This document shows positions 13,790 to 48,175 of a stretch of DNA of 64,000 nucleotides, in pieces; within the stretch, counting starts at the first letter, position 1; every line of letters begins with the position of its first letter. Both the position numbers and the translations under genes were made by a program. The notes beneath the pieces were generated by a model. It did no database searches. It was not told the DNA's origin and saw nothing but the letters and a program-made list of their open reading frames with translations. The stretch is from positions 1,054,001-1,118,000 of the forward strand of contig CM057058.1 of assembly GCA_029945375.1 (NCBI GenBank), read 5' to 3'. This DNA is from Agaricus subrufescens (taxonomy: Eukaryota; Basidiomycota; Agaricomycetes; Agaricales; Agaricaceae).

Positions 13790-15030
13790 CGAGTATGGTA
13801 GTACTAAGCATGAAAGTAACTCTGATACTGTCACCGTCAGAAAAAGGAAAGTATTATAATACTCTCCGTCTTTGAAGTAAGTCAAGACCCCAGTACTGTC
13901 ACCCTCGAGAGCGGACAGTATCATGGTACTCTCTGTCGAGCCAAGACAGTACTATAATACTGCCACTGTCGAGAAAGGAGAGAACTATAATACTCTCCAG
14001 GGTTGAGTATTCAGGTATGGAACAGAGAGTAACACGATACCCTCTGCTATTGAGTTAAGACAGTATCATGATACTCAACATTGTTAAGTACTACAGTATC
14101 ATAATACTGTTGTTTCTCAATAGCAGAAAGTATTATGGTACTGTCCTAACTCGAGGCAGGCCAGTACTATAATATTGTCACCATCAAGCAAGGAGAGTAT
14201 CATCATACTCCCAGCTTGAGTATTCAGGTACTCTCCCTTCTTGAGCAACGGCAGTACACTGATACTGTTACCATTAGGAACAGAGAGTAACATGATACTC
14301 TCTGCCATAGGGGGACGACAATATCAAGGTACTGTCTTACCTCGAGTTAAGACAGTACCACAATACTCTACATTGTTAAGCCCCACAGTATTATAATACT
14401 GTTGTCTCTCAATGGCAGAAAGTATTATGGTACTCTCCCTGATTCAGCGACAACAGTACTATAATACTGTCACCATCCTGCCAGGAGAGTAACATAATAC
14501 CCCCGGGGTTGAGCGACGACAGTACTATAATACTGTTACCATCCAGCAAGGAGAGTAACATAATACTCCCGGGGTTGAGTATAATGTTACTCTCCTTCCT
14601 CGAGCGACGGCAGTACTCAGATACTGTCGCCCTCCGTAACAGAGAGTAACACCATACTCTCTGCCATTGAGCCAAGACAGTACTCTAATACTGTCACCCT
14701 CGAGCAAGGAGAGTATTGTCATACTCTCCGGTGATGAGTATTTGGGTACTCTCCTTGCTCGAGCATTGGCAGTACTCTGATACTGCTGCCCTCAGGAATG
14801 GAGAGTAACATGATACTCTCTTTTGTTGAGGCAGGGAAGTATCCTGATACTGTGATCACTCAACGGTAGAGATCACTGTCTCGTACACTCTCTATGTTAC
14901 AGGCTGTGGTAATATTATACTACCGTCAACACCATATCACCTTTCAGGCATTGTGGTACTTTTATAGACCACACAGTGTGATAGTACTGTATACCCTAAG
15001 AGACAAAACAGTAATACAATACTATATGAG
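13790..15030. repeat. Left subterminal array of the AGTA-N6-TACT palindrome, element A
   Basis: By eye about 25 exact AGTA-N6-TACT sites lie here, with many one-mismatch copies, roughly every 40 bp. Flanking bases are usually complementary (C...G or G...C), giving 16-bp palindromes such as CAGTATCATGATACTC-like and GAGTATCATCATACTC. Spacing and arrangement fit subterminal transposase-binding repeats. Confidence 0.85.
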
Positions 15031-15199
15031 TTATTATGGAAACGAGAAAGGAGTAGTGTCACCTACAACCACCCCTATAAATCCATTTGACTCTCTCTTC
15101 CATCACCCTGAGCGCTTGAAGGTTAGATTCCATGAGTTCACCGTTCCTACTTACAATAATTCATTTGTATCTAGAATGAGTTTACATCACGAAACGTAA

Positions 15200-15517
15200 A
15201 TGGTAGCCATCAATGATTTGCCCAATGAAATTATTCTTCACATAATTTCTGAGGCTATAACGTTTACCGAAATATCCCACAAATGTATTCCATGCACATA
15301 TCAACACTATAGGACACGAGCAGTACTTATGGGTGTGTGCCAGAAATGATATCAGCTGATGGAAGCGTCTCCCAAGCTGTGGACTTCCTACACTATTGGA
15401 AATCCCTGGGGTGATCCAAGCGAGGCCAATGTTACAGTGCCAAGCCGGGAACTCCTTGATATTTGGCAGGAAAGATCCCAGAATTGGCCTATTGACATTC
15501 ATCTCTATAGTGGACTC
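15200..15517 (+). pseudogene. F-box-like gene relic, 5' part
   Basis: A TATAAAT box lies at about 15076. ATG at 15200 opens MVAINDLPNEIILHIISEA, a typical F-box N-terminus (LPxEIxxHI), and continues through PKLWTSYTI and WPIDIHLYSG. A TGA at 15347-15349 interrupts the frame after VCQK, where related fungal F-box proteins have Trp (TGG to TGA would do it). At 15517 the gene is split by the copia element; its continuation is at 22093. It appears to be cargo specific to element A; element B has no counterpart. Confidence 0.7.
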
Positions 15518-15922
15518 TGTTAGAATAATAATAGTATTAGATGCTTGTATAAGCTCGTACTTTATTTAGATAGATATACTTGTATCTCTCCGAGCATTGA
15601 GCGACTCATAGCTCTGCCTAATCGTGTATGTGGATACCTGTAGCTCATGCTCTTCTAAGCTGAGCAATTATGCTTATAATATGCGACCCACAGTAAAGGA
15701 TTTACCTGTGGATGAACTAGTAGTTTAGTATATAAACCCCATGTATTCACTGTAATCTACATCGTCGAAGATACATCTTCTACATCTCTACTACTCTCAA
15801 CACCTACTTCAGCTCCTTAGAACTATCTCCTACTACTTCTAGTAAGTACTACTCAACCTATCACTACGCTAGTTAGCTGCTAGCATGATGATTCCCTAGA
15901 GGATATCATTATTGTCTTAACA
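15518..15922 (+). repeat. 5' LTR of the copia element
   Basis: TGTTAGAATAATAATAG ... TTATTGTCTTAACA, with TG...CA ends and a TATA box (gtatataaacc, about 15729-15739). It is 405 bp, like the 3' LTR. Confidence 0.95.
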
Positions 15923-15942
15923 GGTTATGGGCCCCGATCGCC
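15923..15942 (+). promoter_or_regulatory. Primer-binding site of half-tRNA type
   Basis: GGTTATGGGCCCCGATCGC directly follows the 5' LTR. GGTTATGGGCCC is the complement of the anticodon arm of initiator tRNA-Met (anticodon CAU), as in Drosophila copia, which is primed by a half-tRNA rather than by the tRNA 3' end. Confidence 0.7.
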
Positions 15943-16161
15943 AGCTCACTATGTGCAAGGGCACTTGCACTGGCAGAGTAGGTTGATCATGTAACCTGGA
16001 ATCAAGTGGTAGTGAGATAGACATATCTCCCAACTACGGTTGACCGCTATTCCGAGTCACCCATATAGGTGTACAGACCTATGACATCAGACTACTAGCA
16101 GCATCGGCTGATTACCCCTGCGCTATAAATTGCTGATTTCTATTATTAGAATCAAGCAAAC

Positions 16162-19100
16162 ATGTCTCACGTCATCGCTCTGCTCAATTCTGTCGAACAA
16201 CTTACCGGAGCCGAGAATTACGGCACCTGGAAGGATGAAATGGCCGATATTCTTATCCTCCAAATCGCTAATGGGTTCTCATACAATGCCTACGACGTCT
16301 GCCTTAACAGGTGGACGATCCCGGCTAAACACAAACTTCCACCCAAGTTGGAAACCCAAACCCAAGAAGCTTATACTGAAGGTATAACCCAGCTTGAAGA
16401 AGAGAATAATACTATCGATGAAGCTATTGAAGAGAGGCATTGTCTCTCCCATACTGCAAGAGCAATGATAAATTCTAGGATTACTAGAGGCTTAGTTGCG
16501 CAGAGATTTGACTCTGCTGCAGACCTTTGGAACTTCCTCGAGAAGACTTATGGTGTAACCGGTCCATCGGCTATCTATGCCCTGTACCGGCAAACCATTA
16601 ATTTCCGGATTTCCGGAACAAAGGAACCATCGGCCGAAATAGCCAGCCTCGAGTTAATCTATTCCAGGCTCCGAAGCACTGGGGTAGATATCCCAGAATT
16701 AGTAATGGCGATGTCCCTGCTCGGTGCCATACCAGAGCATTGGAAAATCGCATCATCCTTCTTAGCCGCCAAAGGAGACGTCCCCGACGTAACCTTCCAA
16801 GCTGTCAGAGCTGCGATTTTACAAGAATATAATCAGCGCCTGTCCAGCAATCACCCCCAGGTGAACCGCTTCTCTGGTGTCAAACAAGGAGGCTTTAAAA
16901 AGCCCCAATGGCAACCATATAAAGGACAACAGCAGCCTATGCAGCGACCTAATAATGGCCAGCAGCAACAGCAGCAACAACAACCACAGCAGAGGAATTC
17001 TGCTGGTCCGCAGAAGAAGACTCGCCGAGGGAGGAAAAAGCCTCAGCCTCAGGTAAATGAAATAATCGCCTCTACTGGCGTTCTGCAGCTTGACGACTAC
17101 TCGCCGCAGACCTCGACTCTTTTTGCCCCTGCCACGGGCCAACCACAGGTTAGCGCTCTTGGAGTTGCAACCTCATCAACGCTCCCAAAGAAGGTAGAGC
17201 ATAATTCAACTTCGCAGATCACCCTTGACCCACGACCCAGACCGTACCCTTCCAGAATGGCACTCGCCAAGGAACGCGCCCTCAAACTCTACGAGGACAG
17301 GACGCAATCCAGGAATGGTGGAGAAACTTCTACTACCCCCTTACAAATTTCGAAAGCAGAAATGCTCCGAAAGTTTTGGGAAGAAGAAGAAGCAACCGCA
17401 ATGCGGAAACACATGGAAAATCCCATGTCTCCATACATGCAAAGGTACACAGAGATGCGCAGTGCCTTCCGATACCAAGCTTTCAAAGAAAAGCTGGAAA
17501 AGGAGGAGCTCCCCCAAGAGCCAATAATCGTCGACCCAATCGACGAGGCAATAAGGGAAGAAGCTCCGAAGAGCTTCGATCTCGAAACCGTGTCCCTGGG
17601 AAGCGAAACTGAGGACGTAAAGATCGATGATTACAAGTATGTGATCCGATCTATAAATGATTATCAAACAGCTAACCTTATACAGGCCGGAGATGTCCCC
17701 TACTATTCAGATGTAGGAAGAGACTCTAGTAGTACACCGGCTGTATATTGTATTAATACATCTCCCTGCTGCTTCGCTTCTATATCTGAGGAAGTAAATG
17801 AGGATCCTGCCGAACCTCAAGAAGCCAGAACACCAGATAATCATAGTACTGGCAATCTGCCTAGTATAAGTGGCGTTACACCTATAAATGACGACTTTCC
17901 AATCAGATGGTTACTAGATTCAGGAGCATCACGACATTTTACAAATAACCTTGATGACTTCCTAGATTATGTAACTGGTGATTACGGAGACGCGGGAACT
18001 GCGCATAACAGCAATGATATAAAAATAACTGCTGTCGGAACCGTAATGATAGAGTACGAAGTCTATAATACGACTGACGGAAATACATACCTCATGCGAA
18101 ACACTGTAACCAAGGTTGAATACGCAGAGGAATTACGAGAAAGGATACTATCAGTCAACACATATTTAAATATGGGTTGGACATCTATTGGCGAAACAGA
18201 TCGAACCATTCTATATGATAGACAGGGAAACCCTGCCTTAATGGCCCAAAAAGTTCCTGGAGGAGCTCAAAACCTCCATTATGTTCGATCCCGCATCATT
18301 AAAAACGATGCTTATAACGTCAATAAAATAAGTGTTAATGAAATCACTTATGAAGTCTGGCATCAAAGATTCGGACACTGTTCAGACTTCGCTCTGAGCA
18401 AAGTATCTGAATGCTCCAGTGAACAGATTAAAATCCCGAAAGCTTCTGATCATGTATGCAAGGGCTGTGCGCTAGGCAAACAAAATCAGAAACCCTTTCA
18501 ACCAAACCCAAAACGAGCTAAGGCAATTGGCGAAATGACACATTCTGATCTTCTCGAAATGCCGATCAAGTCGTACTCCAAATATAAATGGGTACTGACA
18601 TTTTTGGATGACTATTCATCCGCTTGCACAATCGTTCTAATAAGGAACAAAGCTGACGTACCAAGGTACATAGAAGCTTACGTACATAAAATGTGGCATT
18701 CACAAAATGTTCGTTGTTTCCAATTTCGGACAGACAATGGCGGAGAATATGTCTCCCAAGGACTCAAGGACTTCTTCCTTGACAATGCGATGGACCACCA
18801 AACAACAGTCCCCTATGCACACCAACAAAACGGTCGTGCAGAAAGGTTAAATCGCACCTTGCTCGAAAAAGAACAGGCAATGCGGCTACATGCCTGCTTA
18901 CCTGATTCTCATTGGGAATTTGCTATTTCAGCAGCCGTTCATGTATATAATAATACACCAATGCGTCGCCTAAATTGGCAGACTCCACACCAATACTTCG
19001 GATATGAAAAGATTGACTTAAATCACCTCCGAGTTTTTGGATGCGGTGCATATGCATTCATACCAGAGGAAAAGCGAATTAATAAGCTTTCACCTCGATC

Positions 19101-21651
19101 TGAATTCATGACATTCATTGGATATGCTCCGGATGGGAGCTATTTGTTCTTCCGACATAAATCCAATAGAACTGTGTTTAGATCAAGATCTGCAATCTTT
19201 GATGAACGAATCTTTCCGTTCTGCCCAGATTACAAACCTGGTGAACTAGAGAAAAGAATGCTTCGAGACGATGGAACTGACGATTCATCATCCTCAGAAG
19301 AAAATCCTCTAAGACCCTTAGAGTATGATCCTAATTTCTCAGATTCTTTCACACCAAAACCGATGAATAATTTTCGGCATAGCCAATATCATCACCCTTC
19401 TTCCTCTAATCAGGAAAGGCCATCGAATCCCACTCCACCTCGTGATAACAGTCCACCACCTGATGATGACCATGAATCCTTCAGTCATGATATCGGAAGT
19501 GCAGAAGGACATCATCAACCAATAGACTATCACGATGAAAATAGATTTGATCCACAACCGCCGCCGTCTACCCCTTCTGACTTAGGTCCAGGAGAAGTTC
19601 AGCCTCCTCCCAGTACTCCTCCCCGCTTCTCTGCGCAAGAAAAAGGAAAAATGAGAGTACCTACTCCGAGTCCGAGCTCTTCTCCAAGCCCAAGGTCGAT
19701 TCCTAAAGAACGACCCCCAGTCATAAGAAGAGAAAGGTCATTACCTAATAGACCTCCCTTCATTCTTCCAGAGGGATTCCCTCCGAGAAGATCGACAAGA
19801 CAACGGCAACCCCCTGTAAGACCAGGAAATGTCTATGGTGAAAGATCAAATCCTGTAGATATTGAAAGACAAAGTAGCGGAGACTGGCCAAGCTCAATCG
19901 CTTTGAAAGAGCAACCAGACCCTTCCGAACCTCCATCAGAAAGAATCAACCGACCACGTTGGCATTCTGATAGAGAAGATGTCGATGATCCGATGGGAAT
20001 GGTGATGGGTAAAAATAAACCCTTACCTAAAATTCCAGAAACAGAAGATCAACAACTAAAACGTCTTACAAGTGAGGGGGGAAAGGAATTCATTTCCATT
20101 TTATTGGCAAAAGCCATCATTCCAGTCACTTATAGAGACCTTGAGAAAATACCTCGGGACGAACAGAAAGACTGGATTGCAGCATGCCTGGAGGAGCTCC
20201 AAGCCTTAAAAAAGCGAGGAGTTTATGAAATAGTTAAACTTCCGGAAGGAAGAAAAGCTATCAAAAATAGATGGGTCTTTAACGTAAAGTCTGATGGCCG
20301 GAAACGTGCTCGACTTGTCGCTAAAGGATTCTCTCAAATCGAAGGAATCGACTTCGATGAGTTATTTTCCCCTGTTGTACGATATGAAACTGCTCGCCTC
20401 ATCTTCAGTGTTGCAGCACTAGAAGATTGGGAAATCGAGAGCGTCGATGTCAAAGCAGCATACTTATATGGAAAACTCGAAGAAGAGATCTACATGGAAG
20501 AACCGGAAGGTTTCCATGATCATCGAGGAAAAGTCTGGAAATTAAACCGTGCATTATATGGCCTGAAGCAATCTGGCTTAGCCTGGTGGCGTGAATTAAC
20601 CGCCTCTATGAAAAAACTAGGCTTTAAGCGATGTGCATCAGATGCAGGGGTATATTATTACGTTGACAAAGAAACGAAGCAACTCATCATTGCATTAGTT
20701 TACGTTGATGACGTAGCCATAATAGGGAAACGAACTGCAGTCTATATAGACTTAAAACGCAGATTCATGCTAAAATGGGAATGCCGAGACTTAGGTGAAA
20801 CCAAAGAATTCTTAGGAATGAGAATTCAAAGGGATCGAGAAAATCGACGACTATTCATAGACCAAGTTGATTATCTCAATAAAATCCTTGAAAGATTCGA
20901 GATTTCGTCTAAGCCTACCAAGACGCCTCTCTCTTCCGGATTCACCTTTAACAAATTCGAAGGCATTGCGACACCCATCTTTAAACAGAAGTACCAACAA
21001 TTAGTTGGATCACTTATGTACCTTATGATCGGTTCTAGGCCTGACATAGCCTATGCAACGGTCAAATTGAGTCAACAATGTGCTAATCCGGCACAAGAAC
21101 ATTATGATCAAGGTCTACATGTTCTTCGCTATCTATATGCTACAAGCAAATATAGACTCAATTATAACGGTGCTTCTAACGAAGCTATTGTTGCCTATTC
21201 TGATTCAGATTGGGCACAAGATCCAACTGACCGGAAATCTGTTACCGGTAATTATGTCACTTTAGCCCAAGGCTGTATAAGCTGGCTAAGTCGCAAACAA
21301 AAAACCGTTGCCTCTTCTTCCACAGAAGCAGAGTATATGGCAATTTCTGACTGCTCCAAACAACTTGTTTGGATGCATCAATTGCTAAAAGAAATCGGTT
21401 TTAAAGTCCAAATTCCACATTTGAATGCGGACAATGAAGGAGCTATTTTTTGGGGATCTAATCCTGTTCAAGAAAGACGCTCCAAACATATCGACATCCG
21501 ATACCATGTAATCCGTGAATATGTCGAAGAAAAGAAGATTGTTTTGTTATATGTCCCTGGTAATAAAAATCCAGCCGACATATTTACAAAAAATCTTGAC
21601 ACTCGAAAATTTGAATTCATCCGATCATTACTAGGAATTGAGTTCTTCTAA
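16162..21651 (+). CDS. Gag-Pol polyprotein of Ty1/copia element (1829 aa)
   Basis: One uninterrupted ORF. The Gag region covers residues ~1-240, with RFDSAADLWNFLEKTYG typical of copia Gag. Where a CCHC zinc knuckle is expected there is instead a Gln-rich then basic stretch (residues ~255-300: QQQQQQQQPQQ, KKTRRGRKK). The protease motif LLDSGAS has Asp586. The pre-integrase zinc module has HQRFGH and CKGC near residues 734-775. The integrase catalytic triad is D796, D858 and E894 (35-residue DE spacing). A long Pro/Ser-rich linker (about 1060-1270) precedes the reverse transcriptase, with YVDD at 1514-1517. RNase H follows (SDSDWAQDPTDRKS, STEAEYMA, KHIDIRYH). The chosen ATG at 16162 starts MSHVIALLNSVEQLTG. 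Everything needed for copying seems intact. Confidence 0.96.
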   Translation: MSHVIALLNSVEQLTGAENYGTWKDEMADILILQIANGFSYNAYDVCLNRWTIPAKHKLPPKLETQTQEAYTEGITQLEEENNTIDEAIEERHCLSHTARAMINSRITRGLVAQRFDSAADLWNFLEKTYGVTGPSAIYALYRQTINFRISGTKEPSAEIASLELIYSRLRSTGVDIPELVMAMSLLGAIPEHWKIASSFLAAKGDVPDVTFQAVRAAILQEYNQRLSSNHPQVNRFSGVKQGGFKKPQWQPYKGQQQPMQRPNNGQQQQQQQQPQQRNSAGPQKKTRRGRKKPQPQVNEIIASTGVLQLDDYSPQTSTLFAPATGQPQVSALGVATSSTLPKKVEHNSTSQITLDPRPRPYPSRMALAKERALKLYEDRTQSRNGGETSTTPLQISKAEMLRKFWEEEEATAMRKHMENPMSPYMQRYTEMRSAFRYQAFKEKLEKEELPQEPIIVDPIDEAIREEAPKSFDLETVSLGSETEDVKIDDYKYVIRSINDYQTANLIQAGDVPYYSDVGRDSSSTPAVYCINTSPCCFASISEEVNEDPAEPQEARTPDNHSTGNLPSISGVTPINDDFPIRWLLDSGASRHFTNNLDDFLDYVTGDYGDAGTAHNSNDIKITAVGTVMIEYEVYNTTDGNTYLMRNTVTKVEYAEELRERILSVNTYLNMGWTSIGETDRTILYDRQGNPALMAQKVPGGAQNLHYVRSRIIKNDAYNVNKISVNEITYEVWHQRFGHCSDFALSKVSECSSEQIKIPKASDHVCKGCALGKQNQKPFQPNPKRAKAIGEMTHSDLLEMPIKSYSKYKWVLTFLDDYSSACTIVLIRNKADVPRYIEAYVHKMWHSQNVRCFQFRTDNGGEYVSQGLKDFFLDNAMDHQTTVPYAHQQNGRAERLNRTLLEKEQAMRLHACLPDSHWEFAISAAVHVYNNTPMRRLNWQTPHQYFGYEKIDLNHLRVFGCGAYAFIPEEKRINKLSPRSEFMTFIGYAPDGSYLFFRHKSNRTVFRSRSAIFDERIFPFCPDYKPGELEKRMLRDDGTDDSSSSEENPLRPLEYDPNFSDSFTPKPMNNFRHSQYHHPSSSNQERPSNPTPPRDNSPPPDDDHESFSHDIGSAEGHHQPIDYHDENRFDPQPPPSTPSDLGPGEVQPPPSTPPRFSAQEKGKMRVPTPSPSSSPSPRSIPKERPPVIRRERSLPNRPPFILPEGFPPRRSTRQRQPPVRPGNVYGERSNPVDIERQSSGDWPSSIALKEQPDPSEPPSERINRPRWHSDREDVDDPMGMVMGKNKPLPKIPETEDQQLKRLTSEGGKEFISILLAKAIIPVTYRDLEKIPRDEQKDWIAACLEELQALKKRGVYEIVKLPEGRKAIKNRWVFNVKSDGRKRARLVAKGFSQIEGIDFDELFSPVVRYETARLIFSVAALEDWEIESVDVKAAYLYGKLEEEIYMEEPEGFHDHRGKVWKLNRALYGLKQSGLAWWRELTASMKKLGFKRCASDAGVYYYVDKETKQLIIALVYVDDVAIIGKRTAVYIDLKRRFMLKWECRDLGETKEFLGMRIQRDRENRRLFIDQVDYLNKILERFEISSKPTKTPLSSGFTFNKFEGIATPIFKQKYQQLVGSLMYLMIGSRPDIAYATVKLSQQCANPAQEHYDQGLHVLRYLYATSKYRLNYNGASNEAIVAYSDSDWAQDPTDRKSVTGNYVTLAQGCISWLSRKQKTVASSSTEAEYMAISDCSKQLVWMHQLLKEIGFKVQIPHLNADNEGAIFWGSNPVQERRSKHIDIRYHVIREYVEEKKIVLLYVPGNKNPADIFTKNLDTRKFEFIRSLLGIEFF

Positions 21652-21671
21652 GTTATTCCGTAGCTTATTTA

Positions 21672-21682
21672 GCATGGAGGAG
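21672..21682 (+). promoter_or_regulatory. Polypurine tract of the copia element
   Basis: gcatggaggag lies immediately before the 3' LTR, in the plus-strand priming position. Confidence 0.8.
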
Positions 21683-22087
21683 TGTTAGAATAATAATAGT
21701 ATTAGATGCTTGTATAAGCTCGTACTTTATTTAGATAGATATACTTGTATCTCTCCGAGCATTGAGCGACTCATAGCTCTGCCTAATCGTGTATGTGGAT
21801 ACCTGTAGCTCATGCTCTTCTAAGCTGAGCAATTATGCTTATAATATGCGACCCACAGTAAAGGATTTACCTGTGGATGAACTAGTAGTTTAGTATATAA
21901 ACCCCATGTATTCACCGTAATCTACATCGTCGAAGATACATCTTCTACATCTCTACTACTCTCAACACCTACTTCAGCTCCTTAGAACTATCTCCTACTA
22001 CTTCTAGTAAGTACTACTCAACCTATCACTACGCTAGTTAGCTGCTAGCATGATGATTCCCTAGAGGATATCATTATTGTCTTAACA
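21683..22087 (+). repeat. 3' LTR of the copia element
   Basis: 405 bp, identical to the 5' LTR except C at 21916. Confidence 0.95.
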
Positions 22088-23040
22088 GACTCTTTACGGC
22101 CAAATCCGATGACAGTATCTTCATGATGACTGCGTTACTGCCTTCCATCAACCAGTGGAGCCATATTGATATATCCTTCAGCCACAACATGGCCGAATCA
22201 TTTCTTTTTTTGAATTTTCAGGGGCATAGGCTAAAGGAGATTTCTTTTCATTCTGTGGAGCGCAAATAAACGATCAACTCCTATTAGGGATCGGACAATG
22301 CCCCCATTTAGAAAACCTTGTGTGGACTTCTCCTGTCGGGCATCCTGCAACGGGTGAACCAACCTTCCACAAGATACTCGATTGCTTTCCATGGGAACGC
22401 CTCTGCCATATCTCTCTAGAGGTTACATGGACTCAGAGGGAATTCTACTTGTTTTTCAGCGCATCCACTTCCGCCCAAACCATCAAACTCAACCTCCATA
22501 CAACCGGTACCACCGGCGACAGAAACAACCCTATAATCACATTACCACACCTACGGTATTTTGGAGCTTACTTAATTCTGTTTTTACCCGTGCTTACACA
22601 CCATCAGGTGCCTCGGCATAGAGTCCAATTCTCGTCTATATCACTATATTGGATGCCTGCATCTCACAGGCATTCAATACATAGCCCTCTTCGCAAAAGC
22701 TATACCACTAGAGAGCTCTTTTGGGTGGGGAACCCCACCCACCGTTATTCCAAAGCCAAGCTTTCTCGAATTTCTCACTCGGACGGCTCGATCTGCACAG
22801 GCCATGATCATCCATGGACTCCAATTATCCAACTCCAATGTTCTTCAATTTTTCAGCCACGAGGGTACGCTTCGCATCCCTGTATTAGAAATAGAGGTTG
22901 GGGAAATGGCTGCTACTGCCGCTATCGAGTACATCAACTTGAACGCTTTTTTCACGGTTTACAACCAAGGGGGAATAGTCAGTTGGTGCTGCAGTGACAC
23001 GACTTGTCATGCACTCTGTGATCTATTCCCCTCATTTTCT
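22088..23040 (+). pseudogene. F-box-like gene relic, 3' part
   Basis: After the GACTC duplication the frame of the 5' part resumes (LFTAKSDDSIFMMTALL, INQWSHIDISF), then needs a shift near 22260. It continues with GQCPHLENLVW, LDCFPWERLCHISLEVTW and LPHLRYFGAYL, the leucine-rich pattern of fungal F-box proteins. Later fragments (22804-22990, HGLQLSNSNVLQFFSHEGTLRIP) read in yet another frame. Stops and shifts show that the gene was decaying before or after the copia insertion. Confidence 0.6.
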
Positions 23041-23097
23041 CTTAATTATCATACCTCGATACATGTAGTTGAAGATGGTCACCAAGAATGAGATATA

Positions 23098-26000: not shown

Positions 26001-26205
26001 TGGAAACTTCTCATGGCTTAGAATTTTTCTTCGAATGAATGGACACTAGGAGGCGCCTCTTTTTCTGCGGTGAAGGATTAGCCACGGTTTTTGACAAAGA
26101 GTTGGGTCGCGTTGCAGCACTCTCTGATGCATCAGAAGGCCGCTGAAGCGCGATATGGATACCAGGAGGGGGGGTCCGAGGGCGAGGACGTTGAAGGCGA
26201 GGCAT
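23098..26205 (-). pseudogene. KDZ transposase of element A (CxC5/CxC6-like), two nonsense codons
   Basis: Seven minus-strand exons match the element B transposase exon by exon. ATG at 26205 opens MPRLQRPRPRTPPPG. A zinc-binding middle region follows: CSCGHPF ... CPHCKS ... CPRCGP within 25135-24335, and before it YCPIAKDKETCVHERYLTEEG near 25590. The RNase H-like core has VVDGGW (about 23740), YDFACQLAPYC (about 23410), DDFHALGHTRC (about 23345) and NSSAAECGN (about 23240, the Glu). The stop is after KILRM at 23098. An intron of about 50 bases near 25199-25149 (branch-like CACTAAA) explains an apparent frame break. Two TGA codons remain: 26011-26013 after KKNSKP and 23464-23466 after ESEG, where B has CGG (Arg). 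Both are explicable by C-to-T change. The first could alternatively lie in an unrecognised short intron. Confidence 0.85.
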
Positions 26206-26340
26206 GTGATAGAAGATGATACGAACATTTCAAGACATACAGCCATACCATAGTACGTAGTATCCTCGTACTGAATATCGTTTACAAAGCAGCTGACCTT
26301 AGAAACAGATATATAGTTCAAGTTGACATTACATTCCACC
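26206..26340. promoter_or_regulatory. Divergent promoter between transposase and gene 2, element A
   Basis: These 135 bp separate the two start codons. They contain AGTATCCTCGTACT at 26259-26272, an exact AGTA-N6-TACT palindrome like those of the subterminal arrays, with an adjoining partial copy (AGTACGTAGTAT). A TATA-like atatata lies near 26310 for the rightward gene. Element B has an equivalent site in the same place. Confidence 0.6.
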
Positions 26341-28853: not shown

Positions 28854-28859
28854 CCCAAT

Positions 28860-35325: not shown

Positions 35326-35340
35326 GGACTGTGTGCAACT

Positions 35341-35510: not shown

Positions 35511-35559
35511 CTCACGGTCCTTTTATATCCATCATAGCATACAAGGTATATAGGCAGGG

Positions 35560-35870
35560 ACAGTACAAGAATACTTTCACAGTGACACTTCATTGCTAAA
35601 CAGTATCACAGTACTCACATTACAATGAAACTATACATATTTATGTGAAGAGTACCATGTTACTGTGTCCAAATACCACATAACAGTATCACAGTACTCA
35701 CACTCATTTTCTCAGGAGAACATTGTTACACTGTTGCCCACCACAGCAAGAAGGTACCATGGTACTCTCTCCTACCACAGGGAAAGGTACTGTGATACTC
35801 TGGGCAGCCACTGCTGGAAAGTACTATAATACTCTTTCCTACAGTGGCAGCATGACACTATTGTCTACAT
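35560..35870. repeat. Left subterminal AGTA-N6-TACT sites of element B
   Basis: Includes AGTACAAGAATACT (about 35572), AGTATCACAGTACT (twice), AGTACCATGTTACT and AGTACTATAATACT, spaced 40-60 bp. Confidence 0.8.
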
Positions 35871-35871
35871 T

Positions 35872-36535
35872 GGCAGAAGAGTTCTGTGGTACTCCTATCT
35901 GCAGAGTCAGAACAGTTCTGTGGTACTCCTATCTGCAGAGGCAGAGGAGTTCTGTGGTACTCCCATCTACAGAGGCAGGAGAGTTCTGTGATACTCCTGT
36001 CTGCAGAGGCAGAAGAGTTCTGTGGTATCTGCAGAGGCAGAAGAGTTCTGTGGTACTCCCGTCTGCAGAGGCAGAAGAGTTCTGTGGTACTCCCGTCTGC
36101 AGAGGCAGAAGAGTTCTGTGGTAGGCAGAGAAGAGTACTTCAGTTGTGGTACTCCTGTCTGTTCTGCAGAGGCAGAGAGTTCTGTGGTACTCCCGTCTGC
36201 AGAGGCAGAGAGTTCTGTGGTACTCCCGTCTGCAGAGGCAGAGAGTTCTGTGGTACTCCCGTCTGCAGAGCAGAGTTCTGTGGTACTCCCGTCTGCAGAG
36301 GCAGAGGAGTTCTGTGGTACTGCAGAGGCAGAAGAGTTCTGTGGTACTCCCATCTGCAGAGGCAGAAGAGTTCTGTGGTACTCCCATCTGCAGAGGCAGA
36401 AGAGTTCTGTGGTACTCCCATCTGCAGAGGCAGAAGAGTTCTGTGGTACTCCCATCTGCAGAGGCAGAAGAGTTCTCTGGTACTCCCATCTGCAGAGACA
36501 GAACAGTTCTGTGGTACTCCTGTCTGCCAATATTG
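35872..36535 (+). repeat. 34-bp minisatellite derived from the subterminal palindrome
   Basis: About 18 tandem copies of a unit GAGTTCTGTGGTACTC + CCGTCTGCAGAGGCAGAA, mostly with a period of 34 bp and a few shortened units (near 36120-36320). The core is a G-AGTT-N6-TACT-C version of the array palindrome with one half-site fixed as AGTT. Open frames here in all phases are products of the repeat, not genes. Confidence 0.9.
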
Positions 36536-36598
36536 AACCTTGTATGCTTTGAACCAAGAAAGTATCAAAGTGTCTTTAAAGAAATTGAACTACATAGA

Positions 36599-39500: not shown

Positions 39501-39687
39501 ACTTGGACGATGATGGAGAGTGCAAGGAGACTACCAGGCGCCGTTTTTTCTGGGGCGAGGGCTTGAGGACCGGCTCTGGCTCTTCCCCTTCTACAGTAGA
39601 ACGGCGTGGTATATCAGAAGGGCGTTGCAGCGCGATATGTGTGCCAGGAGGAGGGGTCAGAAGTCGACGAGGGATTGGAGTACGCAT
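36599..39687 (-). CDS. KDZ transposase of element B (CxC5/CxC6-like), apparently intact
   Basis: Seven exons read leftward: 39687-39199, 39145-38998, 38948-38682, 38633-37822, 37773-37579, 37524-37234 and 37180-36599, with introns of 48-60 bases and standard sites. The intron at 38681-38634 has branch CAACTAAT; its length is a multiple of three, so the frame also stays open without splicing. Order of parts: a basic, Ser-rich N-terminus (LLTPPPGTHIALQRPSD, KKRRLVVSLHS); CYCP ... CVHQRYLTEEG; FWRD and GADTGFGIWRC; a cysteine-rich region (RCSCGHPF, LKCPICKT, VCPRCGP); then the RNase H-like core with VVDGGW (Asp), YDFACQLGPYC (Asp), DDFHALGHTRC and NSSAAECGNGG (Glu). It is known for KDZ enzymes that this D-D-E set cuts the element ends. 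The start is chosen by alignment with A (MRTPIPRR = MPRLQRPR). Confidence 0.88.
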
Positions 39688-39804
39688 GATGATGGGGAGA
39701 TGCAAAAATTTTTGTAAGGCATTTAAACCACACGCACAGTATTGTCGTACTCACCTAGTGATGTCTGACAAACCCCAGTTCTCGTGTTCTTGACCTGGTT
39801 TTTG
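39688..39804. promoter_or_regulatory. Divergent promoter between transposase and gene 2, element B
   Basis: 117 bp with AGTATTGTCGTACT at 39738-39751, an exact AGTA-N6-TACT palindrome in the same place as A's AGTATCCTCGTACT (the two share TCGTACT). Surrounding promoter sequence is otherwise diverged. Confidence 0.6.
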
Positions 39805-41089
39805 ATGTCACTGGCTGCACAGAGGAAGTCTACCAGGCAGTCTGGAACAGCCACAGCTACTGTGACCTCGGCTCGGGCGCCCAGAAGATGTCGTGTCTGT
39901 CCTAACAACCCGTTGAAGGCCACGTGTCGCTGCTCTGAGCGACGCAGGGCTGTACAAAATCCACAGGTGCGTTGAACCAGGCATGTATACGTCATTGATT
40001 AACTAAGTACCACGCTCAGACTATTGAGGATGTTCGTGAACCAGTTACTCAACCACCAGCTAGTGTGCCACAAGTAGCACTAGCCGGTCTCCATGCCAGC
40101 ACACACATACCCGCAGTTTCGTTCTCTTCTACCACCTTTTGCGAAGGCATCACTCACTGTCAGGCGCAGGTGAATCACCAGGAATACGCCCAACTACACA
40201 ACGGTTCAATCAACAACTACACACCTGCGCCGGCCGACCATATATCCATACCGACTCCAATTGAAGCTCATGAGATCGCTATCGATCCAGCTCTGCTGGT
40301 TGATGAGCCATCTCGAGCTCCAATCCTGGACTCTATCCCCGATATGGCTGACATCGTGGAAGAAGAAAACCAGGATGATGAAGGTGCTGGTGATGAGTTA
40401 GAAGGTGTAGGGGGAAAGTCAGGCAAACGGCTAACAGTGGCACAAAAAGCAACACTGTACGGGCTCGTGGATGGCGTGATGAGGGGGAATACAGAATACA
40501 GTGCGCCGTCGCTCGTCTCTTTATACCTAAGCAAATAACTAACATAAGTCAGAGGTGGTGCGGCAGAATGCAAAGCGAAGGCCGATGCTGGATGCTTCCT
40601 CAGCAACTACAAGGTACAATCGCGAGATACCATTGGTCATTGCTAGGGTAAGTTTAAAGTGCATACGCGATATTATTGAGCTTGTTCTGACGTTCTGACT
40701 GCCAGGCTGAAAGATTGGCTATCGAAACTGATGCCTATGTACTCATATTGGCTCAGCAAGCCACTGGATCGTCTGCTTCGATTCATTTCGCCTCTGAACG
40801 CTTGAGGAGAGAGGGGTTTGATCAGTGTGCCGACCTGGTCAACTGCTTTCAATCCTTAATGACACAGTTGGTCATAGCGAAACGGTCAACCGCAATGACT
40901 CTTACGCAAAACTTGGAAGCTTCAGAGAGAGCACGAGCCCAAGTCGAGGAGCGGTTGGCAGCTAGCAAAAATGTTGTTGTGACTACAGAAGCCGAATTGG
41001 TAGCAACGAGGAGGGCCAACCAGGCGTTGTTATCGGAGCTAGAGGCTCTGAAGAGTAGCCTAGCAAGCCAGTCTCAACTTAATGACTAG
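39805..41089 (+). CDS. Element gene 2 (B): N-terminal cysteine cluster, C-terminal coiled coil
   Basis: ATG at 39805 starts MSLAAQRKSTRQSG. Exon 1 carries RRCRVCPNNPLKATCRC (CxxC-x8-CxC) and ends at a GTGCGT donor at 39967; the next exon starts after CTCAG at 40019. It includes an acidic run (VEEENQDDEGAGDELEG) and AQKATLYGLVDGVMRGN, the most conserved block with A. A short exon (VRQNAKRR ... TTRYNREIPLVIAR) precedes the final exon (from about 40706), AERLAIETDAYVLILAQQATG followed by a ~100-residue heptad region and a stop at 41089. The reading frames are clean, so B's copy looks functional. It shares a bidirectional promoter with the transposase, suggesting a joint role, for example as a DNA-binding or assembly partner (inference). 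Confidence 0.75.
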
Positions 41090-41144
41090 CTTAGCAATAA
41101 ATAAGTTCTCATTCTTTTGTACCAATGTATATGTTACAAATGCG

Positions 41145-41640
41145 TTAAACCCGATACCACGGTTCCTGACAGACAAGATTGAGCGATACGATACAAAGAT
41201 ACGGTGAAACGTACAAGTCCAATTCAACCTGGAGTGCCAAAAAGGCCATCTTGGGACCTAGTCCTGGTAAAGAACAGAGTTCGTTGAAGGTTTTAGGGAC
41301 GTCAGAGTCGAAATCGTCGCGCAGCATTTGCGCTGTTCGTTTGATGTATCTGTATAGATGTAAGTAAGCAGGATCTTGACAGCAAAGTGCTAACATTACC
41401 CAGTCTTCCGCCACCACAATCTGACTTTGTTTATGGCCTCAGAAACAACAGACTTGTCTGCTGTGATGATGGCGTCTACAGACAACGCTCCACCGACAGC
41501 ACCTCTGAGCTTCGCTACAGCGGCATCCGTCACCTCATCCCTGGTCTGTGACGAGAGCATGAGAGAGACAAGTGTGGAGAATCTTCTATTCTTGCTCAAG
41601 TGAACGTCTGGCGTATACTAGTATCAAGTGGGGACGAACC
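41145..41640 (-). pseudogene. NTH1: Captured fragment of an endonuclease III-type DNA glycosylase gene
   Basis: Minus-strand exons read NRRFSTLVSLMLSSQTRDEV, AAVAKLRGAVGG, then YIKRTAQMLRDDFDSDVPKTF and LCSLPGLGPKMAFLALQV: the helix-hairpin-helix core of endonuclease III with the catalytic Lys in LPGxGPK. The segment that should follow (catalytic Asp in a GVDxHVxR motif and the four-Cys [4Fe-4S] cluster) is missing; the frame instead ends within 25 codons. Upstream (about 41600-41640) the reading needs a frameshift. The fragment can therefore not be an active glycosylase. It lies inside element B where A has no counterpart, so it was captured from the host genome. Confidence 0.82.
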
Positions 41641-41650
41641 TTGAATCTGG

Positions 41651-41905
41651 GTGACCATTGTCTGCACGACCGGAATGACGCTTTTTGGTGAGTGTCGCAC
41701 ATACTTTTTTTTAGTACGTATTCTCATTGCAAATCACAAACACCTAGGTTATGATCAAGGGGTGTTTGGTGGAATCATCGTTACACAGGACTTCCTCGAT
41801 ACCATGGGTAACCCTGACGCAAATCTCCAAGGCACTATCGTATCGTTGTACACAAGGCAACTGACTAGCCAAGAGATACCACCAGATTATTTCCGGTGTC
41901 TGTAA
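41651..41905 (+). pseudogene. Captured fragment of an MFS sugar transporter gene
   Basis: GMTLFG, then an intron (GTGAGT at about 41690 to CTAG at 41747), then YDQGVFGGIIVTQDFLDTMG and LQGTIVSLY. This matches the first transmembrane region of fungal hexose/sugar porters (LFGYDQGVxxGI). Homology ends at about 41860; the rest of the ~500-residue transporter is absent. It is head-to-head with the NTH1 fragment and only a few bases away. Confidence 0.75.
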
Positions 41906-42265
41906 GCCGTAGAAGATCGCTGAAACAAACACGAGCATGTCCCGAACAGGGGCCGACGTCTCACATTGAGATGTGGATCCAAGTTAGAGTTTGGGCTTGA
42001 AGCACATCAACTGTCAATGGAGGAATACTTACACCTGCCATCACCGCATATGCATAACACGACTTGGTTTGACGGCACCTCGCACATGCACCGCAGACAT
42101 ATCTTAGGAGTAAGTAACAGGGGTCGACGTCGGGGTGCCTTACACATGCACAACACACAGGGGGTGAACATAAACAGCTTTTTACAACCACGCATATGTA
42201 CACATGTTTACGATGATACAAACATTTTCAAAAATAGAAACAGTTTCAAAAGATCTATCTACAAT

Positions 42266-42316
42266 GACTTGGGACGTAGATTGGTGGGGATCCACCACCA
42301 AGCTACGTTCCAAGTC
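42266..42316. other. Conserved 22-bp-stem hairpin with GGATCC loop, element B
   Basis: Arms 42266-42287 and 42295-42316 (GACTTGGGACGTAG.TTGGTGG and its complement) pair with two imperfect positions around the loop GGATCCA. It sits at the same distance as in A from the end of gene 2 (about 1.2 kb) and the start of gene 3 (about 2.1 kb). Confidence 0.75.
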
Positions 42317-42752
42317 TATAATCTACTTTTTAAAAGTACATAAGCATATTTCAAGGCGGAGACACTATATATAACGTAGAGCATGGCCAAACATTAGTAT
42401 AGGAGGAAAGTCAAATTCAACAAAGCACTTATCTTGGTTGGGTCGGGAAACCTGGATACAACATAATGTCACTGTATTAGAGTGGAGTTCAGCTCGAAGA
42501 TTAAATGAATACTTAACAGCGCGAAAAAGTAAACCCGTGCACTATCTGAAGGCTAGCAAATTGAAGGTAGAGTGGAGGATATTCGCGGGTATCTGGCGAG
42601 TGTTTGTACCCCTTGTATGTGCGGAAGTTTTCACCAGAGGCTTACCTGAGCGGATATGATAATACAAGGGGTGTGGTCTCTGGTATTTCAAGTTGGATCT
42701 CTTGGTTCGGCATCTATAGAGTCGTTCATTGGCATGCTTGCGTACCAATGAA

Positions 42753-42930
42753 GTGTCATGATAACCGGCATTAGACACGAGATTTTCCCTTTAATAAAGA
42801 ACTTACGAACCTTTAACGGCAAACCTGAATGCGTACTCGAGCAAGCGCAGAAAGCGTCATGGAAACCAGTACTAGACAAGACATTTTCCCATTAATAAAG
42901 CACGTACAGACCTTAAATGGCAAACCTGAA
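42753..42930 (+). repeat. Direct repeat, two 77-bp copies, period 101 bp
   Basis: Copies at 42753-42829 and 42854-42930 share GTCATG, TTAATAAAG and GGCAAACCTGAA. Confidence 0.75.
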
Positions 42931-43762
42931 AAACCAACTATTGACGCGAATAGGACGAAGTAAATAGGACGAAGTAAAAGCAATGAACGGGCGCTAAATT
43001 CTCATGCAAACATCAATAAAACATATTGCTAGATTCAATAGTTCTCACCGGCATACAAGTGCTAGCTCTGAGAGGGCGGGATAGCTGAGGTGGCTAACGA
43101 CGATACAAGTAGAGCCTGCATAAACTCGGCGTGAGTTGCATTGAGCTAGAGTTCGGTGCGGAGGACAAAATACCACGTACTTTCCAATCATAAAAGAGAT
43201 CACCATCCGCGGAGGTCGAATCTCCCAATAGAACAGAAACCCTCGCATGGAAAGGGCTTCAACGAATTCCCCCAGACCCCAAAAATGTCTCACCGCAAAG
43301 ACCAGTCCATCGATAACGCTGGAGCTAGCACCATGCAGAGGAAACATGCCGGCAGAAGCCAAGCAGAGTACCTTCATATCGTGCTTGAAAAAGCCCGATA
43401 AAAGCTGAAGGGAGACCCAAGCCTCCTGCCCGAGGCTGACTCGCCCAAGATCTCAGTCACACTCATAGCATACCGCGGGCGCTCGGCATTACACGGAGAT
43501 GGACTTTGACAATAGTTGAGGACGGCAGAGGTGAGGGATCTAAAGGAAGAGGCATTGTTGTGTCTGAGTATGTTTTTATACGACTGATGGCAGCAGTGAT
43601 AGGAGGCTGGAGACTAGAACAAATAACGTCAAATAGGACTCATGGGGAACGCTCACCTCTCTCCGCCGAAGTCCTATGCCCTCTGCCCTTTACAGCCCCT
43701 ATACGTCCTATTCTACCTCAGGAGTCATTCATTCTATTGGGATATATAAGGATCGAAGAGGC

Positions 43763-43776
43763 AGTACTCTAGTACT
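43763..43776. promoter_or_regulatory. AGTA-N6-TACT palindrome upstream of gene 3, element B
   Basis: AGTACTCTAGTACT, 20 bases after a TATA-like gatatataagg. It is matched in A at 30248, including the trailing ACCCCT. Confidence 0.6.
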
Positions 43777-44403
43777 ACCCCTACACAGTAGCATCCCCTC
43801 CAGTCGTGCGTCGGGCTTTCTGTGTATCATATGTTGACATTATATGCGCTTTACAGTACTGTCAAGGCTCTGGTTAGCAGATGGATTGCTACCCGCCTAG
43901 TGTGAAGTCTTCCTCTCGCGTGTGCACGTTCTATGATCTCCTGGTACGCATACCCCTTATTGCGGCTCCATTTGTTATTGATTGCATATAGATTCGATGC
44001 GATTTCGGCCCCCTATTCAATCACACATGTCTAGCCAGGGACACACATTCGCTTTCATGCTTGTGTAGAGAAGCTCACTGGCACCAACAGAAGTCGTTAG
44101 CGGGCTTCATACCGACACACGTAGTGGCCCAGGGGGGATGAAGTACTCAACATTTCGTTTTCGCACAAGACACTGAACAATGTTCTACGCACCTCCAGTT
44201 CTAAAATAGCATGGCATTCGGTCATTGCTGCCGGTCCAGATTTGCAATTACGGCCGCTACCATTTGCAATCACAGCCGCTACCATCCGCAGAACTGCCGT
44301 ACTGTTCCAGTGTCCCCTACAAAAACCCACCCAGTCACAGAATTGTCATACTGTTCTGGTATCCCCCTTCAGCTAGAACTCAGAGCATTAGCCTGCGAAG
44401 AAA

Positions 44404-46893
44404 TATGTCCCGTGAGTGAAAGCCATCTTGTCGGTGTTAAGAGGTGCTGATGTGGCCATAGAAACCCAGCTCCTTCAGGAAAAGATCGCGGAAATCGTTG
44501 CACAACTCAGCAAGTATGAGTCCGAAATGGTTGACTTGAAGGACTCTCAACCAGCCCGAGGCTCCGGCGGTAAGTGATCTAATAGCTGTCTTTTGTCATT
44601 ACTGACAAATGTTCGTGCAGCTAAAAAGGCAAAATTGCAAAAGTTAATCCAGGGGGCAAAATGTTGGCTCACCAATGCTGAGAAGAAGCTCAAGGAGGCT
44701 CCTGCCTCTCAACCGGTAAGTTTTTTGTTTCATGGCGTGACGTTCCATGAAACTAATGAGCTATAACAGGCGTCTTTAAATGTCTAGCATTCGCTTGATG
44801 TCAGCGATGTAACTCAACCAGCGGTTAGTCCATGATTTAATCAGGACTTCATATCACTAACATCTGTGTAGGCTGCTAACCAAGTAGATCCGGTGCAAGA
44901 GTTGAACACCGATATGGTAAGGCTATATTATATTCAGAACGGGCTTTGCCTGAAGATAACTACATTCTAGGTGGTTGATAACATTACGGACAATCAAGCA
45001 ACAACTCCCCTGATTATATCTGCTGGAGGTGCCAAAGAACTGAACTTGTCATCCAGTGTTGCCGGGGACAGTATCACGCCGGCAGTCGATCCCTTACCAA
45101 TCAGTCCCACGCCCTCTACGGACAATCAAGCAACGACTCCCCTGAATATATCTGCTGGAGGTGCCGAAGAACTGTTGTCATCCAGTGTCACCGGGGGCAG
45201 TATCACGCCAGTTGTTGATCCCTTACCGATCTGTCCCACGCCCTCTTCACCCCCTGAAGCCCTCAACGCATCACCTGAGGATGCGATGATTGTGATTGCT
45301 TCTGGAGCTGCTATCGGTCCACCTGGAGCACTTAAACCAGACATACTCACCTCAGGCATTGCAGCTCCCTCTGATCCAGAGGTTGTCCAAGCTTTGGTTT
45401 CTGAAAATCACTCAACCTCGTTCAAACGTGTCGACCGAAGTGAAAGTGAGAGTGAGGACAAAGAGATGGATCTGACCTTGATTACTATTGAGGATAGTAA
45501 GTTGCATTTTTCTCCCCCGTGTTACACTTGCTGACTTTAAATCAGAAGCAGAATTACAGCAACATTTATTCAAAGGAAGATTTGTCAAAGGCGCCCGGCC
45601 CGTTAAAAGTTTGTTTCAATTTTTATTAAATGTAAATAATGCTAAATTTACCGATACTCAGAACCGAGATATGTTGAGGTTTCCAACAATGATGAGCTTG
45701 GCGGTGACCCTGGCATTTTCGATGATGAGGCCGAGGAGACTGGAGTGACTAAGCCAACAGGGGCGACCCAACCCACTCAACAACCTGGCAACATCAATCC
45801 CACGGTTGAGCCAGAATCTGTACCACCGCATCGTCAAGGAACCCAATCTAGAGGAAGGAAAGGTAAGGGTCGAGAGGGAGATACCAAGGCTCAGAGAAAG
45901 AAGGAGTCTCAGGGCAAAGTTGCAGAGAAAGGACTCCAAAGTGGGGGATGTCAAATGATAGTGCCCAAAGACGGTAATAGTGCAAGCGAGAACACTGAAG
46001 ATGAGAACGAGAAAGGAGGTGCGCTCATAGATGTGAATGTGTCAATGAACGTGCGCACAACTAACATTTATTTATAGATTACCAAGCGTCTCAGTTTTCT
46101 GTTGCCAAGGCCACTTGCCTCAACAATGATTTGTCGAAGAGGCGCGAGCGATGGGCTAATCCAGGTTAGCGTTATCAATTTCAAAGTGTATTGTTTACTC
46201 ATATCAAGTTTAGAAGCTCACTGAGCATGGGCTAAAGCTTGGCTGGACGCAAAAGGCTCAGATACACACCCACCGCCACCCCCCGGTATTGAACTCATAT
46301 GATACGATCCTGATTACCTACCAGACGTTGCCACCATGGATTACGACCTCGCCATCGAGTTGCTGAAGAATCATAGCAACAACTACTTGTGCATTGCACA
46401 TGTCATGCTGAACCGAAAACTTGTATCCCATGTCGACAATCTCAAAGGGCCGGTCAAAATAAGGGGGACCCGGCTACCCCGAAATCAGAACCCAAATGTC
46501 AAATCGGAGATACCCCGCCCTCCTGGTCACTTTCATTGTGGCTGCCACGAAAAAGTTGCTGTAGCTGGATTTGTCATGTGGAAGACGTGGAAGGCAAAAT
46601 GTAAGATTGAGGGAAAGCTGGTTGTAGAGAGTCTCCACCAACATAAGGCTTTCAGCCCTCGCGAGGTTCTATTCATTCTCCAGTTTATGAAATCCAAATT
46701 TGGTTATATGGTGGAGGACATGTTTACAGGGTCATTTGATGAGGAGGAGGAGTTGAGAAATGAGGCTGCCGTGATGAAGAAGACCTCTAAGTTTACTGCC
46801 CATAGTCATTTTAACATGATAGGACAAACCTTTTCGTTGGATGAGGATCCCCTGGAATTTGAGGAGGAAGATATGGATATGGAGTGGATTTGA
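44404..46893 (+). CDS. Element gene 3 (B): unknown family with FHCGCHEK motif, one in-frame TGA
   Basis: ATGTCC at 44404 splices (GTGAGT donor, CATAG acceptor at about 44461) into QTQLLQEKIAEIVAQLSKYE, a probable helix/coiled coil. KKAKLQKLIQGAKCWL follows; it parallels the A copy. A Ser/Pro-rich repeat section holds two ~150-bp direct copies (ITDNQATTPLIISAGGA / STDNQATTPLNISAGGA, 44981-45240). Then KRVDRSESESEDKEMD and a Lys-rich region lead into the conserved C-terminal domain (46200-46893): NYLCIAHVMLNRKLVSHV, PRPPGHFHCGCHEKVA, FSPREVLFILQFM, EDMFTGSFDEEE and MEWI. A TGA at 46300-46302 falls where A reads His (LIHYD). This either inactivates B's copy, is recoded, or is spliced out. A and B domain sequences are clearly homologous but well diverged. 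Confidence 0.68.
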
Positions 46894-47079
46894 GAGTAAG
46901 TCTTTGCTTTTGAGTGTGACGATTTACGCTAATAGTTGTCCATTCATTTGTCTTTTGTATAGCATATGGAGCTTAGCACATAAAATACTATTTCAATGTA
47001 GTCCGTTTTATGAATATAGTAATGCGTGGATTGTCTTGCGAACGCTATTCAGTAACTTGTAATTAGATATTTCTTTTAC

Positions 47080-48175
47080 TGAGGGAGTACGATGGTACTC
47101 TGCACCATAGGGGACAAAAGTACGACAGTACTTTCATCATAGGCTGGCAGCAGGGTACTGTGATACTCCGTCTGTGGGGGAGTATTACTGTACTCCTGCT
47201 GCCCTTCTGGTTGCAGTACCTCCGTACTTGGCACAATTGAGTGTCAAAGTACAGGAATACTGTCATTGTAATTGATCAGAATGTGCTATAATATCCTGTC
47301 TCTCCTGAAACGTGAGTATCAAGATACTCCTTCAGCCCTGATAGACAGCAGTACAACAATACTCCACCCAAGGCTATTAGAATATTGTGGTATTTCTGGT
47401 GGCAGAGTACAATGATACTCCTTCTCTGCGGAGGGGGAGGAGTATCATAGTACTCCTCTAGCCTTCCTATCGACAGTAATTTGGTACTATGCACCATTGC
47501 AGTGTCAGTACAATAATACTGTTGTATTGCGCAGTATCATGCTACTCCTTCTCTTTAGAGGGGCAAAGTATCACAATACTTGCCTCGATTAAGCGATGCA
47601 GTACCATGGTACTCTTTGTCCACAGAGGCTGGGGTATTGTGGTACTCATTCACCACGCTATGTCATTGCGGTATGACAGTACTTGGCACCAAGGGATGCC
47701 AGAGTATGAGGATACTCTCGTCACAACAGAGTATCTTGCTACTCCCACTCTGCACAGGTAGGGAGTATCATAGTACCCCGCTATTCCTAAAGACAGTACG
47801 GATGTACTTTGCACCATTATAGGGGAGAGTATGATCATTCTGTCATTGATCCTTGACAGTATTACATTACTTCCGACAAGGGGAGTATCACAATACTTCC
47901 GATAAGGGGGGGTATCACAATACTTCCAATAAGGGGGAGTATCACAATACTTCCGATAAGGGGGAGTATCACAATACTCCTTCAGCTATGGGCCCCAGAG
48001 TTCAGAAATACTATCACATTCGACTATACAGTACGATGGTACTCAATGCCTTGAGATATGATGCGAGTATCACAATACTCCTTGAGCTATGGGCCCCAGC
48101 ATTCAGAAATACTATCACACACGACTATACAGTACAATGGTACTCAGTGCCTTGAGATATGATGCTGACCGTATA
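47080..48175. repeat. Right subterminal array of the AGTA-N6-TACT palindrome, element B
   Basis: Many copies (AGTACGATGGTACT, AGTATCATAGTACT, AGTACCATGGTACT). At 47868-47985 a 30-bp unit (TTCCGATAAGGGGGAGTATC type) repeats four to five times. At 47985-48165 a ~98-bp unit with AGCTATGGGCCCCAG repeats twice. Confidence 0.85.

Follow-up and report, generated by a model that had tools for sequence, protein, structure and literature searches.

KDZ (Kyakuja-Dileera-Zisupton) transposons form a group that was reportedly named by Iyer et al. in 2014. Two Kyakuja families are described in the accessible text of Kojima 2025 (PMC12730594) with a 7-bp target-site duplication (TSD), CA..TG ends and no TIR. 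In maize, the TNPA protein of En/Spm attaches to subterminal repeats; transposition requires it, and it also regulates the element that encodes it, according to the part of the account available to us (PMC2613891). The Drosophila P element, as portrayed in the accessible text of PMC7776569, makes an 8-bp TSD, has internal transposase-binding sites near its ends and encodes a 66 kDa repressor.

Two KDZ-type DNA transposons, A and B, are found in a stretch of 64,000 nt of Agaricus subrufescens DNA, hereafter the window (C2:1054001-1118000, in a genome of 44.65 Mb and 44 contigs). Their features are collected in Table 1. Both have the same gene layout, with the transposase on the minus strand and the divergent gene 2, followed by gene 3, on the plus strand. 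The elements have ends of the form GGGGCAGG..CACCTACACG and imperfect TIRs, and the 8-bp TSD of B, GTCACCTG, lies at 35422-35429 and 48266-48273. B entered A within the last ~12 bp of the right end, so that A's final four bases lie past B. The TIRs of A (13695-13830 and 35282-35416, inverted) are 84% identical, and no TSD of A was found. Compared with B, the outermost ~20 bp of A at both ends look swapped relative to A's genes. The Copia-type element within A is a recent insertion; it contains one open frame of 1,829 aa and a probable 5-bp duplication, GACTC. A relative of B on contig C9 is 98% identical in the CxC4 part and has an 8-bp duplication of its own, ATCATCTT. Between genes 2 and 3 of B a short open stretch (41645-41902), which we take to resemble the start of a sugar transporter, is possibly a captured host fragment; a Pfam scan of this stretch found nothing. 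Beside the elements, 50125-63171 holds three copies of ~3 kb, 81-84% identical to each other, with NACHT-domain genes.

Table 1. Features of transposons A and B in the window (positions counted from the first base of the window).
Feature	Position	Strand	Remarks
Transposon A	13678..48277	.	KDZ-type; own DNA 13678-35429 and 48274-48277; ends placed by comparison with those of B
A left array	13792..15023	.	27 exact and 7 one-mismatch sites
Copia-type LTR retrotransposon	15518-22087		inserted in A; 99.75% identity between LTRs over 406 bp
A transposase gene	23101..26205	-	homologous to that of B by exon matches; exon limits approximate
A divergent-promoter site	26259..26272	+	between predicted starts of transposase (26205, minus) and gene 2 (26341)
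A gene 2	26341..27686	+	
A gene 3 upstream site	30248..30261	+	TATA box starts 18 bp before site
A gene 3	30922..33269	+	approximate start
A right array	33511..35319	.	25 exact and 20 one-mismatch sites
Transposon B	35430..48265	.	KDZ-type; 12,836 bp; nested in last ~12 bp of A's right end
B left array	35562..36518	.	5 exact and 19 one-mismatch sites, 17 being AGTT-N6-TACT in a 34-bp tandem unit
B transposase gene	36602..39687	-	KDZ domain 36602-37180; CxC4 cluster 37804-39000; exon limits approximate
B divergent-promoter site	39738..39751	+	midway between predicted starts of transposase (39687, minus) and gene 2 (39805)
B gene 2	39805..41089	+	candidate binder
B gene 3 upstream site	43763..43776	+	TATA box starts 18-20 bp before site
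B weaker one-mismatch sites	44290..44352	+	sites at 44290 and 44339, near gene 3 start; matrix scores 10.1 and 13.3
B gene 3	44416..46893	+	approximate start; exon structure partly resolved
B right array	47086..48144	.	24 exact and 8 one-mismatch sites

The transposase of B matches PF18758 (E=4.6e-7, 30.2 bits, cut-off 26.6) and PF18717 (E=1.4e-44). That of A matches PF18717 (E=9.8e-43) and reaches 26.4 bits for PF18758 on one exon, just below the cut-off of 26.6. Thus the elements resemble KDZ transposons in the PF18758 catalytic domain, over the cut-off in B and just under it in A, and in the PF18717 CxC4 cluster of the transposase.

The preliminary description of this DNA had noted a 14-bp palindrome, AGTA-N6-TACT, with a strict 6-base centre, and this is confirmed. 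When AGTA-Nk-TACT was counted for k = 0-20, k = 6 gave 85 exact matches and any other k at most 4, so that a single one of the 21 centre lengths is enriched. In 100 dinucleotide-preserving shuffles of the window, the comparison that the description had called for, the mean was 0.80 matches and the largest count 3. The sites divide into 81 in four subterminal arrays, 4 in element interiors and 0 in the flanks; equal frequency outside and inside the elements, which the description had named as refuting its proposal, is thus not seen. The four single interior copies that had been pointed out (26259, 30248, 39738 and 43763) were all recovered. The further claim that the motif fills all four arrays needs correction; the exact motif does not fill the left array of B, as 17 of its 24 sites read AGTT instead of AGTA. 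A segment of that array (35880-36518) is homogenised for AGTTCTGTGGTACT, one mismatch off the core, and this variant also occurs in the C9 copy. The arrays are poor in CpG, with observed/expected ratios of 0.10 in the left array of B and 0.42-0.57 in the other three, against 0.71-0.78 for the interiors of the elements; a low value is also seen in the left flank (0.33) but not in the right one (0.86).

Between neighbouring array sites, exact or one mismatch off, most spacings are 33-34 bp (70 of 131), and pooling of the array sites yields a longer palindromic consensus of 20 bp, GASAGTAYYA/TRRTACTSTC. When the non-array places of the window are scored with a matrix derived from the array sites only, the four interior exact sites take ranks 1, 2, 3 and 5, and rank 4 goes to 44339, the one-mismatch site inside B near gene 3. 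The half-sites are fixed in the window's arrays, and the centre and flanks vary. The three inner centre pairs are complementary in 34, 32 and 31 of 81 sites against expectations of 35.5, 30.1 and 37.4. Since these pairs do not covary, the conserved thing is not a DNA hairpin. The flanking pair -1/+14 does covary (43 complementary, 28.4 expected), which counts against our main reading. The half-sites lie 10 bp, or one helical turn, apart, so that a dimer could contact both on the same side of the helix. Taken together, the one-turn half-sites, the fixed centre length and the lack of covariation in the inner pairs indicate a symmetric protein dimer and not a hairpin.

The site in the divergent promoter lies ~50 bp from each predicted start in B, and about 53 and 68 bp from them in A. 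In the 24 loci of the A/B subfamily it is placed identically by alignment, being exact in 18 and carrying one mismatch in 6. After removal of the near-duplicates L004, L013, L016, L019, L020, L022, L023 and L024, 16 of the 24 copies were kept for a count of alignment columns. Mean identity is 0.977 in the eight core columns and 0.628 in 120 columns around them (p = 8e-6, for rows that are related to each other), and 10 of these 120 equal the core in conservation. Over the ±60 bp flanks the median pairwise identity of these 16 copies is 0.53.

Similarly, 12 of 16 copies have an exact site upstream of gene 3, namely A, B, the C9 copy and 9 of 13 further stretches, which were chosen from roughly 30 subfamily loci to avoid duplicates. 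The remaining four copies (L054, L057, L058 and L059) lack an exact site. With added flank, L057 and L059 (upstream only) showed neither an exact nor a one-mismatch site, L058 (both sides) showed one one-mismatch match, and L054 one-mismatch matches only. In all 12 copies having the exact site, the distance from it to the start of an upstream TATA box is 16-22 bp. In TATA promoters transcription is expected to start a short distance 3′ of the box, and hence the gene 3 site sits where transcription is expected to begin. The C9 copy reproduces the layout of B in full, with two arrays and one exact site at each of the two promoter positions; near it, one more exact match falls outside the element limits.

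A six-frame search of the genome identified 39 CxC4 loci, of which 24 belong to the A/B subfamily, 2 (L025 and L026) to a 50% identical one and 13 to a 46-47% identical one. Some ~300 kb of sequence seems to be present twice, at C1:1.51-1.83 Mb and C2:0.41-0.73 Mb, in inverted order and with element copies at matching distances; these mirror regions look like a segmental duplication or uncollapsed alleles. The L025 subfamily has an array of the same half-sites (11 sites) and three exact promoter sites. Its site upstream of gene 3 lacks a TATA box at the customary spacing. At the sixth base, purines occupy 3 of 3 promoter sites and 10 of 11 array sites, whereas 65 of 81 sites of the window's family have a pyrimidine there. 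The fifth base is a purine in 3 of 3 promoter sites but in 3 of 11 array sites of the L025 subfamily, and this counts against the main reading.

Subfamily 3 is more distant, with identities to B of ~47% in CxC4, ~32% in gene 2 and ~30% in gene 3. Its arrays consist of TGC-AGTAGAATTCTACT-GC at a spacing of 34-35 bp with centres that differ from those in the window, and 331 exact sites were counted in the stretches examined, a few of them outside arrays. The arrays flank gene 2 on its outer side, and gene 3 likewise in the one case examined. In L032-L044 gene 3 is on the transposase side, so that the gene order differs from that of A and B; with the arrays still terminal, the gene order has been rearranged without moving them. 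The diverged subfamilies share with the window's arrays only the core and the ~34-bp spacing. No exact site was found in the divergent promoter at any of the 11 subfamily 3 loci examined. Four copies (L027-L030) and the one at C6:40k have the same one-mismatch site at the expected place; these five are near-identical, and one such match per ~300 bp is within chance. The absence of exact divergent-promoter sites from subfamily 3 is the chief result against a universal promoter role. Conservation of the promoter sites in further copies, which the description had asked for, accordingly holds for the most part at both positions in the A/B subfamily, and no exact match supports it in the divergent promoter of the 11 subfamily 3 loci.

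The bases outside the core were compared separately. Scoring against the array matrix of the site's own family was confined to the 12 positions outside the core in a 20-bp stretch; it used exact sites (the one-mismatch L007, L008 and L021 being left out), without the eight near-duplicates and L026. By these bases, 21 of 28 promoter sites rank within the top 10% of positions nearby (median 0.02), and 7 lie outside, the worst being the divergent site of A at 0.308. When families are compared, 25 of the 27 promoter sites listed score highest with the matrix of their own family, the exceptions being A (L010) and L012; in this comparison identical strings were taken once for the divergent promoter, the gene 3 sites comprise 12 rows with 9 distinct strings, and the L025-subfamily matrix was built from just 11 array sites. 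That the ends and the promoters carry one shared recognition site is well supported by these sequence comparisons. Because the families have different non-core preferences, which the promoter sites of a family mostly share with its arrays, binding by an element-encoded protein is supported indirectly.

Dozens of sites at each end, with one in each of the element's own promoters, suggest that one element protein may hold the ends and control the genes. In the mechanism we consider rather probable, an element-encoded dimeric protein, probably the product of gene 2, binds both ends and promoters and represses the genes of the element. AGTA-N6-TACT would be recognised by a protein that the transposon itself encodes and that binds DNA as a symmetric dimer. 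Tens of sites per end, spaced by ~34 bp, would load the protein and may help to bring both ends together for the transposase. At the single sites, in the middle of the divergent promoter and just 3′ of the gene 3 TATA box, the same protein would most likely repress the element's genes. Repression is the likelier effect because the gene 3 site lies over the expected start of transcription. The preliminary description had likewise proposed a single element protein on ends and promoters that autoregulates transposition; its shared recognition site stands and its element-encoded binding gains indirect backing, while protein binding as such, the origin of the binder in the element and repression are steps that we infer, the choice between repression and activation being read from the position of the site.

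As the binder, the product of gene 2 is most likely, followed by the transposase. The gene 2 protein is small, with a basic N-terminal C-x2-C-x9-C-x-C cluster and a long C-terminal helix that is a probable coiled coil. It is the better candidate because all 39 CxC4 loci have a gene 2 match nearby, the distant subfamily retains its basic four-cysteine cluster, and it has the long C-terminal helix. In A. bisporus, homologs of genes 2 and 3 carry consecutive locus numbers. Three of four annotated A. bisporus homologs of gene 2 are without the C-x2-C-x9-C-x-C cluster, which counts against the main reading. Pfam and Foldseek comparisons recovered no recognisable DNA-binding fold in gene 2. The MADS domain of SEPALLATA3 (7nb0) appeared in Foldseek at rank 37 with E=1.9; no SRF-TF/MADS family was listed in Pfam scans of four homologs, and a six-frame genome search with PF00319 listed three places, none near gene 2, although the region concerned is split by an intron.

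It is possible, though doubtful, that the transposase itself binds the ends and the promoter through its N-terminal part or its CxC4 cluster, and that gene 2 has another role, e.g., bridging. Transposases of many families bind subterminal sites, and this one carries the CxC4 cysteine cluster. Gene 2, however, has a basic four-cysteine cluster of its own, conserved as described above, and a C-terminal helix suited to a dimer. Alternatively, the protein may activate the element promoters instead of repressing them, through a bidirectional upstream activating site in a positive feedback loop. Its central place in the divergent promoter would allow the site to act on both genes, and En/Spm TnpA is described, in the accessible part of PMC2613891, as a positive and a negative regulator. 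The gene 3 site over its expected start, with the TATA box before it in every copy having the exact site, fits repression better, and we regard activation as unlikely.

The motif could also be the site of a host transcription factor that the transposon recruits for its expression, with the arrays either acting as a sponge for the factor or having multiplied its site by accident. Dimeric regulators of fungi typically recognise half-sites placed symmetrically around a spacer, and single copies occur genome-wide (a count of 3,188 matches for the motif, with places listed for a minority of them, versus 1,278 for the reversed control pattern). This explanation is nevertheless improbable, in that the bases flanking the core differ by subfamily and the promoter sites mostly follow their own arrays, as if binders had diverged family by family, and in that subfamily 3 has arrays without exact divergent-promoter sites. 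We find it hardly credible that the arrays are ordinary tandem-repeat satellites, with promoter matches kept merely through recent copying. Near-identical tandem units do occur in the left array of B, the right array of A and the subfamily 3 arrays, and certain copies resemble alleles or segmental duplicates. Against this, the arrays of the window keep their half-sites constant but vary in centre and flanks, the promoter core columns are far more conserved than those around them, and core and spacing are all that the diverged subfamilies have in common.

An extension of the repressor reading, which is speculative and on balance not what we expect, would make the arrays a copy-number sensor that titrates the repressor, with the gene 2 product as a new DNA-binding family whose specificity has co-diverged with the arrays in at least three subfamilies. 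Each extra element would then titrate repressor, any dimer sitting at an end would be missing from the promoters, and array length and copy number would set the rate of transposition, in a manner that may be likened to the iterons of bacterial plasmids.

The 8-bp TSD, seen in B and the C9 copy, and the TIRs are as in Cryptococcus KDZ1 in the accessible text of PMC12810828. The present elements differ from KDZ in having three genes and operator-like arrays of ~1-2 kb at both ends, and a TET/JBP gene was not found in them. For this reason they do not match the TET-positive fungal transposons either; Tet_JBP (PF12851) gave three matches in the genome (C2:3846077, C7:2235142 and C14:163711) and none in the window, with a model that could miss a very divergent TET. 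Nor do they match Kyakuja as given in the accessible part of Kojima 2025 (PMC12730594), having instead an 8-bp TSD, ends of the GGGGCAGG..CACCTACACG type and imperfect TIRs. In the main text of PMC12730594, a term search for 'subterminal', 'tandem repeat' and 'AGTA' returned nothing, and no mention of such arrays was found in the accessible text of the Cryptococcus KDZ paper (PMC12810828). A search of the open-access literature on KDZ, Zisupton and Kyakuja for subterminal features, a scope that subscription papers mostly fall outside, likewise yielded no description of such sites or of self-regulation.

The site, the arrays and the promoter copies are now defined well enough for a direct test, and a small candidate protein can be named. 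The natural families, with a shared core and a shifted flanking preference, also provide a series in which the joint change of protein and site in transposons can be studied.

Among the regulated transposons, the P element, as far as the accessible text describes it, differs in having few sites of 10-11 bp in place of arrays, a repressor that is a form of the transposase, and no second or third genes. In maize En/Spm and other CACTA elements, a small element-encoded protein binds many short subterminal repeats and also regulates the element (PMC2613891, in the part accessible); the likeness seen here is one of sites, and the proposed binder would extend it. Their transposase belongs to an unrelated superfamily, and there is no sign of a related binder. 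Moreover, the site here is a spaced palindrome that is repeated singly in internal promoters, kilobases away from the terminal arrays. By analogy, the regulatory logic of these elements may work like that of En/Spm TnpA, but in the KDZ superfamily.
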